A program made the translations under genes and the position numbers. DNA of 43,194 nucleotides. It comes from Bacteriovoracia bacterium. GTDB lineage: Bacteria; Bdellovibrionota; Bacteriovoracia; Bacteriovoracales; Bacteriovoracaceae. Position 1 is the first letter of the stretch, and each line of letters opens with the position of its first letter. Below are positions 29,570-30,901 of this stretch, piece after piece. The notes under the pieces were generated by a model that saw only the letters and a program-made list of their open reading frames with translations, made no database searches and was not told where the DNA came from. Location: positions 1 through 43,194 of the forward strand of contig JAUIBX010000006.1 of the NCBI GenBank assembly GCA_030427595.1. The letters run 5' to 3'.

Positions 29570-30206
29570 GTCTTTAAAGCCTCTTTTTGCTTACTTTTTT
29601 ATCAAGCTACTATCTCTTAGCTATCGTTATGAATATCTTAACCCAAAAGAGGTTGAAAAAGTGCTCAAAGAACATGGCAACTATCTCTTTGCTCTTTGGC
29701 ACCAAAACCTCATTGGTGCCATTCTTAGCCAAAGCCACAAAAGTCATGCTGTTATTGTCTCTCCTTCAAACGATGGTGAACTTGTTGCGAGAACTTGCGA
29801 ACGTATGGGCCATAAAGTAGCAAGAGGTTCATCTTCAAGAGGAGGCCAAGCCGCTCTCAAGCAAATGATCCGCTTACTTAAAGAAGGAACTCCTGGTGCC
29901 ATAACTGTTGATGGCCCTCGAGGTCCAGCTCACGAAGCGAAGAAAGGAATTTTTGAGCTGGCCTACCTCACCCGTACCCCTATTATTCCCCTAACTGTTC
30001 TGCCCACATCTTATTGGACAGTTAAAAAAAGTTGGGATCATTTTAAAATTCCTAAGCCTTTTACACGTTTTAGAATTCACTTTGGCGCACCTCTCCTAAT
30101 AGACAAAGACTCAAAAAATGATCATTTCAATCAAGCGTCATTAGACCTTAAGCAGCAATTGGAACGTAGCGAAGACTATATAAATTCAATACTTGGCGAT
30201 TCCTGA
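29568..30206 (+). CDS. DUF374-family lysophospholipid/lipid A-type acyltransferase
   Basis: A 212-residue protein from the ATG at 29568; in-frame ATG at 29556 and GTG at 29526 are alternatives because no strong ribosome binding site is seen. It has the DUF374/LPLAT-like pattern: FALWHQNLIGA (the catalytic His in a WHxxLIGA segment), VSPSNDGELVARTCERMG, RGSSSRGGQAAL, VDGPRGPAHEAKKGI and IPLTVLP. These proteins transfer acyl groups to lipids, probably at the inner membrane. The start lies inside the start of the minus-strand secreted-protein gene, so the two are transcribed from overlapping divergent promoters. Confidence 0.9.
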   Translation: MSLKPLFAYFFIKLLSLSYRYEYLNPKEVEKVLKEHGNYLFALWHQNLIGAILSQSHKSHAVIVSPSNDGELVARTCERMGHKVARGSSSRGGQAALKQMIRLLKEGTPGAITVDGPRGPAHEAKKGIFELAYLTRTPIIPLTVLPTSYWTVKKSWDHFKIPKPFTRFRIHFGAPLLIDKDSKNDHFNQASLDLKQQLERSEDYINSILGDS

Positions 30207-30246: not shown

Positions 30247-30274
30247 TTGAAACCTTGTACTTTCTAACTAGAAT
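30247..30274 (+). promoter_or_regulatory. Sigma70-type promoter of the histone gene
   Basis: TTGAAA (30247-30252) and TAGAAT (30269-30274) are spaced by 16 bp, close to consensus. The predicted leader is about 50 bases and ends with an AAGGAG ribosome binding site, which suggests high expression. Confidence 0.65.
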
Positions 30275-30330
30275 ACTCCTACGTACAAAATGAACAATGA
30301 CGAACACTCAACTTAATAAGGAGAAATAAA

Positions 30331-30516
30331 ATGGCTAAAGAATTAGACATGCTACTCGTAGGCTCAAAAACAAAAGAAGCTCTTAAATCAACAGGTCTTA
30401 ACGTATCTGGTGAAGCTCTCGACAAGCTTAACGAAAAAGTTCATCAGCTTGTAAAAGAAGCTCAGGAAAGATGTGTAAATAACGGTAGAAAAACTGTTAA
30501 GGCCACTGATTTCTAA
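30331..30516 (+). CDS. Bacterial single-histone-fold protein (HBb type)
   Basis: A 61-residue protein with the histone-fold layout: a short first helix (KTKEALKSTG), a long middle helix (residues 25-50, SGEALDKLNEKVHQLVKEAQERC) and the L2 loop NGRKTVKATDF. The GRKTVKATD segment is close to archaeal histone GRKTIKAED. Arg53 and Asp60 occupy the places of the conserved Arg-Asp pair. It ends soon after, so the third helix is almost absent, as in the described Bdellovibrio histone Bd0055. It probably dimerises and binds DNA as an abundant chromatin protein. It is monocistronic with its own promoter and strong terminator. Confidence 0.9.
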   Translation: MAKELDMLLVGSKTKEALKSTGLNVSGEALDKLNEKVHQLVKEAQERCVNNGRKTVKATDF

Positions 30517-30536: not shown

Positions 30537-30567
30537 TAAAGGCCGGACCAAGTCCGGCCTTTTTTTT
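30537..30567 (+). terminator. Rho-independent terminator after the histone gene
   Basis: AAGGCCGGAC-CAA-GTCCGGCCTT followed by eight T. The stem is GC-rich and perfect, one of the strongest terminators in the window. Confidence 0.95.
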
Positions 30568-30607: not shown

Positions 30608-30901
30608 ATGGATCTTAAAGAAAAACTCGAAAAAGAAATTTTAGAAACCACTTGGGAGCCTCTTGCGCCCCACTTTGCTCGAGGGAGTGTTTACCTTCTC
30701 GATCAAGACCTAGAGCTCATTGAGGTGGGTCAGGCCATGGCCGAAGATAATGTCGCTCAAATTAAGACATGGTTAGATGACGGGCTTATGTGTCCTCCAA
30801 CGCCAGAAGAGGCCACTGCTTTTGCTAAAAACTCTGATTACACCTTTAAAATGCTCATTATTGAACCCTATGTCCTTATTCAAAAAAGGCTTCAAGCATG
30901 A
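30608..30901 (+). CDS. DUF2288-family protein
   Basis: A 97-residue protein from the ATG at 30608. The longer frame from 30566 would begin inside the histone terminator and is rejected. The sequence LEKEILETTWEPLAPHFARG and LELIEVGQAMAEDNVAQIKTWLDDGLM matches DUF2288, a small family of unknown role found in many proteobacteria. The stop overlaps the start of the DUF1499 gene as ATGA, so the two are coupled. Confidence 0.82.
   Translation: MDLKEKLEKEILETTWEPLAPHFARGSVYLLDQDLELIEVGQAMAEDNVAQIKTWLDDGLMCPPTPEEATAFAKNSDYTFKMLIIEPYVLIQKRLQA

Follow-up and report, generated by a model that had tools for sequence, protein, structure and literature searches.

A predicted tailless face-to-face histone in a Bacteriovoracaceae genome, with a tailed paralogue and a phage-borne relative

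The histone locus and its transcription unit

The window analysed here is a stretch of 43,194 nucleotides from a Bacteriovoracia bacterium (assembly GCA_030427595.1, contig JAUIBX010000006.1, positions 1 to 43,194). On its forward strand lies an ATG-initiated open reading frame of 61 codons with the product MAKELDMLLVGSKTKEALKSTGLNVSGEALDKLNEKVHQLVKEAQERCVNNGRKTVKATDF, which we assign as a putative tailless α3 histone of the face-to-face (FtF) category. The gene and its surroundings comprise the following features:

29571–30206, + strand: upstream neighbour, a DUF374 acyltransferase-like gene outside the histone unit (PF04028, 8e-27; synteny)
30247–30274, + strand: promoter-like site TTGAAA-16-TAGAAT, matching the consensus at 10 of 12 positions
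30318–30323, + strand: Shine-Dalgarno sequence AAGGAG, 7 nt before the ATG; a purine-rich counterpart is retained in orthologues
30331–30516, + strand: histone gene, 61 aa, predicted tailless FtF α3 histone (open reading frame, PF00808, match to the Leptospira histone HLp, fold matches of the model to PDB entries, invariant FtF residues)
30469–30471 and 30481–30483, + strand: codons for Arg47 and Asn51, putative tetramer contacts together with residues 52–61, by equivalence with HLp
30484–30513, + strand: GRKTVKATDF, residues 52–61, with the L2 loop, the Arg53/Asp60 clamp and the C-terminal Phe61 (contacts assigned from equivalents of HLp R49, N53, R55, T61 and F63)
30538–30567, + strand: intrinsic terminator, an 11-pair stem (30538–30562) followed by a T-run
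30608–30901, + strand: downstream neighbour, a DUF2288 gene beyond the terminator (PF10052, 3e-27; synteny)

A consensus promoter scan of the window found 5 sites where 3.8 ± 1.9 were expected; because this alone is not above chance, comparative conservation was used instead. When ten upstream regions were aligned, the promoter-like site emerged as a conserved block (TAGAAT in nine of the ten), and it is kept in all six aligned same-genus genes (that of the window plus five others) and in most other relatives, while the DNA around it has diverged. At the place equivalent to the terminator, same-genus orthologues carry a GC-rich stem and T-run that differ in sequence. Given this conserved block and the terminator counterpart in sister genomes, the possession of its own promoter and terminator is well supported by comparison, and the gene, standing alone between the two, is supported as monocistronic, in keeping with the original prediction. 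The gene order (DUF374 acyltransferase-like, histone, DUF2288, DUF1499, and CRP-family genes) is preserved across most of the genus and partly in other genera of the family. A mobile or prophage origin of the gene is unsupported, the neighbours being housekeeping-type and their order conserved.

Numerous open reading frames of similar size are listed in the window, and many of the short ones are due to chance, unlike the conserved histone frame. That the latter is likewise a chance frame is so improbable as to be negligible: homology, synteny, fold and substitution pattern all speak otherwise, and the conservation data already refute it. Within the genus, dN among close tailless copies is 0.03–0.05 and dS 0.6–1.1, for a dN/dS of about 0.03–0.07. 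The window gene is a real gene, and its type is under strong purifying selection.

Predicted fold and subfamily assignment

The window protein barely exceeds the Pfam cut-off for PF00808 (22.1 bits vs. 21.4), and a phmmer search of PDB sequences recovered HLp of Leptospira perolatii at 3e-11 (45.9 bits) and HBb (Bd0055) of Bdellovibrio bacteriovorus at 2e-5 (27.9 bits). An AlphaFold2 model, built for single chains only from a 38-row alignment, had a pLDDT of 86.8 and placed α1 at residues 11–19, α2 at 27–50, and α3 at 58–60, a single turn of three residues. Foldseek ranked the HLp structures 9QT1 and 9QT0 first (9QT1: TM 0.85/0.90, rmsd 1.3), with HBb and the archaeal HTkC next. The 61-residue histone-fold protein that had been predicted, with its GRKTVKATD stretch at residues 52–60, Arg53/Asp60 pair and almost complete lack of a third helix, agrees with the Pfam and phmmer matches and with the model, which gives the histone pattern on which that prediction was staked, with HLp as the best match.

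The prediction had also likened the protein to the Bdellovibrio histone, and here the subfamily matters. Prokaryotic α3 histones include FtF tetramers, bacterial dimers, ZZ histones and others, and the bacterial dimers are without the Arg and Asn that link two dimers in FtF histones (PMC11390915). The closed homotetramer is the defining feature of the FtF category. HLp forms an FtF tetramer and wraps about 60 bp of DNA around itself, with tetramer contacts R49, S52, N53, R55, T61, and F63 (PMC12701072). The equivalents in the window protein are R47, N50, N51, R53, T59, and F61, identical except at one position (S52 to N50). In an archaeal FtF model the interface Arg is paired with the C-terminal carboxylate (PMC11390915). 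The model of the window protein also has the shortened α2 and the α3 of three to four residues that characterise the FtF fold, and the RxTxxxxD motif is present as R53, T55, and D60.

Of the 115 family genomes sampled, about 21 carry a close tailless copy (hereafter A-type, at 69% identity or more), and these orthologues match the window protein at 69–95% identity. All 22 A-type rows keep R47, N51, R53, and D60 unchanged, and T55 likewise, and every chain ends at position 61, with Phe in all rows except one with Ile; most chains of a second FtF group (B-type, below) run past this end. HBb carries Ser and Asp at the R47 and N51 positions, and position 51 is Glu or Asp in all ten ZZ or dimer-like rows, Asn being absent there and in HBb. 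In a histone tree of 60 columns, which is weakly resolved, the FtF-like rows, HLp included, were split from the HBb and ZZ rows by a branch with 100/94 support; HLp sits on a long branch, and the tree adds little beyond this split of FtF-like rows from HBb. HTkC groups with the ZZ rows (branch 3.05), a placement left uninterpreted for this partial sequence. Neither HLp nor HBb has the cysteine that stands next to the tetramer Arg (Cys48, 30472–30474) and is conserved in 21 A-type rows of 22 and 43 B-type rows of 46; it could conceivably have a redox or metal-related function at the dimer–dimer interface.

These data bear on whether the window protein instead belongs with HBb among the bacterial-dimer histones, which would make it strictly dimeric and let it bend DNA or coat it edge-on but not wrap it. 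The window genome, whose nearest named records are metagenome-assembled genomes of Bacteriovoracaceae/Halobacteriovoraceae, shares a phylum (Bdellovibrionota) with Bdellovibrio, HBb chains (8CMP, 8FVX, 9EZZ; PMC10627809, PMC11317129) occupy ranks 3 and 5–8 of the fold search, and the two proteins have in common the α3 fold, the RKT motif, the Arg/Asp clamp, an SK motif in α1, and a single short domain. The RKT motif, the clamp and the short third helix are, however, common to both the FtF and HBb types and so do not discriminate between them, whereas R47 and N51, which dimers lack, are both present and invariant. HBb, a DNA-bending dimer, has only 22 of 55 aligned residues identical and scores well below HLp by sequence, and the 100/94 branch lies between it and the window protein. 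We consider membership of the HBb-type dimer family quite unlikely and reject it. With both diagnostic residues present, HLp nearest and the tree split as described, the likeness to the Bdellovibrio histone is limited to the general α3 fold and does not extend to subfamily. By sequence and predicted structure, the window protein matches the tetrameric, DNA-wrapping HLp better than the dimeric HBb.

Other histone classes fitted less well. A nucleosomal (HMf-type) histone needs a full-length α2 and a 10-residue α3, against three residues here, and HMfB appeared only at fold rank 31. ZZ histones and phage histones with a C-terminal domain were set aside as well, the window protein being 61 aa of histone fold without a zinc finger or helical domain.

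Likeness to HLp (PDB 9QT0, 9QT1, 9QT2) extends over 58 residues at 48% identity and includes the predicted fold, the R/N/R/T/F tetramer residues, the Arg/Asp clamp, the α1 lysines, and the same terminal Phe. Most of the residues with which HLp contacts DNA have identical counterparts in the window protein (S12, K13, K15, K19, G27, and T55). Counting against the match are the changes S52 to N50, T56 to K54, and T27 to V25. HLp also comes from another phylum and is the sole histone of its genome, encoded next to smc, whereas the window genome has two further histones and its histone gene is flanked by DUF374 and DUF2288 genes. HTkC of Thermococcus kodakarensis (9F2C) has FtF architecture and a fold match of TM about 0.83–0.88; it is archaeal and about 40% identical to the window protein.

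Companion histones, expression and proposed working

Three histone genes were found in the genome, along with three HU/IHF-family matches. The second histone gene, on another contig (C29:6882-7058; L002:1447-1689), encodes a tailed FtF paralogue of 80 aa with a net charge of +13 and the N-terminal tail MAKKKATKKKATARKATRK. It is 55% identical to the window protein and shares the R/N/R residues, the Arg/Asp clamp, and ribosomal-protein-like codons; it differs in its Lys/Ala/Thr-rich tail, in ending YDILA rather than TDF, and, as B-type proteins of this genus do, in three extra L1 residues. Tails of this kind are H1-like, and their length is highly variable among relatives. The third gene (contig C7; L003:1229-1692) is a ZZ-type histone with a codon adaptation index (CAI) of 0.47. 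An in-frame TAA, at a position occupied by a sense codon in sister genomes, separates its zinc finger from its histone fold, and the gene may be a pseudogene, a split gene, or an assembly error.

Codon usage sets the window gene apart from its surroundings. Its CAI, measured as adaptation to ribosomal-protein genes, is 0.729, which lies inside the range of those genes (mean 0.686) and above all 43 other open reading frames of the window (mean 0.563, maximum 0.641); resampling with background codon usage reached this value in 38 of 20,000 draws. Ribosomal-protein-like codons suggest high expression, and the protein is probably abundant, as originally predicted; codon usage is the one basis for calling the promoter strong and the gene highly expressed. 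At 0.836 the tailed paralogue exceeds both the window gene and each ribosomal protein tested, which suggests that, of the histones in this genome, it is expressed most highly, ahead of the window gene.

Taken with the likeness to HLp, from which the tetramer, the wrapping and, in part, the abundance are extrapolated, the most probable reading is that the window gene encodes a tailless FtF α3 histone acting as a DNA-wrapping homotetramer and general nucleoid packer. Each dimer would form along the long α2 helices of its two chains, and contacts by Arg47, Asn51, Arg53, Thr59, and the C-terminal Phe61 would join two dimers face to face as a rigid, ring-shaped tetramer. Lysines of α1 (13, 15, and 19) and the L1 and L2 loops (Gly27, Lys54, Thr55) would then hold about 60 bp of wrapped DNA without sequence specificity. 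The protein would be produced in bulk from its own promoter and pack the nucleoid alongside the tailed paralogue and HU. Its net charge of only +2 weighs against this reading.

It may nevertheless be that most of the packing falls to HU and the tailed paralogue. Under such a division of labor the function of the window protein would be narrow, either in local regulation or as a minor component of the nucleoid, and the higher CAI of the paralogue and the three HU/IHF-family matches are in its favor. We regard this as unlikely given the ribosomal-protein-like codon adaptation of the window gene itself, and given that FtF histone genes rank with the most strongly expressed in Leptospira and Halobacteria (PMC11390915).

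Somewhat more plausible, if still doubtful, is that the window histone mainly mixes with its tailed paralogue, forming mixed dimers or tetramers that dilute the Lys-rich tails and tune compaction in a variant-like manner. All six same-genus genomes with a window-type gene also carry the tailed gene, 13 of the approximately 21 A-carrying family genomes have a B-type FtF gene alongside, and residues of the dimer core and DNA contacts are largely common to both. Against mixing, about eight A-carrying genomes apparently lack a B-type match, and the longer L1 of B-type proteins in this genus, with chains usually running past the position of the C-terminal carboxylate, may keep the two apart. A homotetrameric packer remains our preferred reading of the window protein. 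With two natural FtF paralogues in one cell, the contribution of the tail lends itself to testing.

Published surveys had already placed FtF histones in Bacteriovoracia; no relevant paper on histones of Bacteriovorax or Halobacteriovorax was found in the literature searched. The present data would extend the wrapping type to a lineage of Bdellovibrionota in which HU, a ZZ histone, and a tailed FtF paralogue are encoded as well. Among more distant records, A-type histones occurred in metagenome-assembled genomes labelled Gemmatimonadota (L079, L085), by horizontal transfer or through mis-binned contigs, and same-family relatives (L054, L055) encode doublet histones, single chains made of two short tandem folds.

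Viral relatives

No match was found in a search for histones in annotated phage records, and plasmid matches were all below 60% identity and, among the matches listed, all haloarchaeal. The 108,875-bp IMG/VR contig IMGVR_UViG_3300037755_000497 (pieces L145–L150) encodes a 63-aa tailless histone (L057:2980-3171) that shares 77% identity with residues 6–61 of the window protein, along with the same FtF residues and C-terminus. The contig also encodes a tape measure protein (2.5e-85), a tail sheath (9e-19), a baseplate wedge, and a head maturation protease, and is therefore assigned to a contractile-tailed phage. Its histone gene has a helicase gene on one side and, on the other, a gene encoding a large D/E-rich protein with a zinc-ribbon-like CxxC pair; this protein might, speculatively, mimic DNA or act as a chaperone for histones. 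Members of the published "phage histone" category carry a C-terminal tetramerisation domain and no RxTxxxD motif (PMC11390915); the phage copy differs on both counts, and no description of it was found in the literature searched, the coverage of which was partial.

In the tree the phage copy falls inside the A clade, beside the genus of the window (88/74, modest support), a placement which suggests capture from a host of the window lineage. The existence of the phage copy indicates that histones of this type pass between viruses and their hosts. Both this copy and the tailless/tailed pair are interesting additions to the known FtF histones. They also invite a broader, distinctly tentative picture of two-histone chromatin, in which tailless and Lys-tailed FtF proteins would build wrapping tetramers, either separate or mixed, perhaps with exchange between them in the course of the life cycle. 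In the same picture, the tailed phages of these bacteria would have acquired the tailless histone as a means of packing or masking phage DNA in the chromatin style of the host.

Seven more viral contigs (L058–L064) encode more distant histone folds with an N.RKTV core; one is a doublet, some have Lys-rich tails, and their genes often lie beside genes of DNA metabolism, for example thymidylate kinase or recombinase-like genes.
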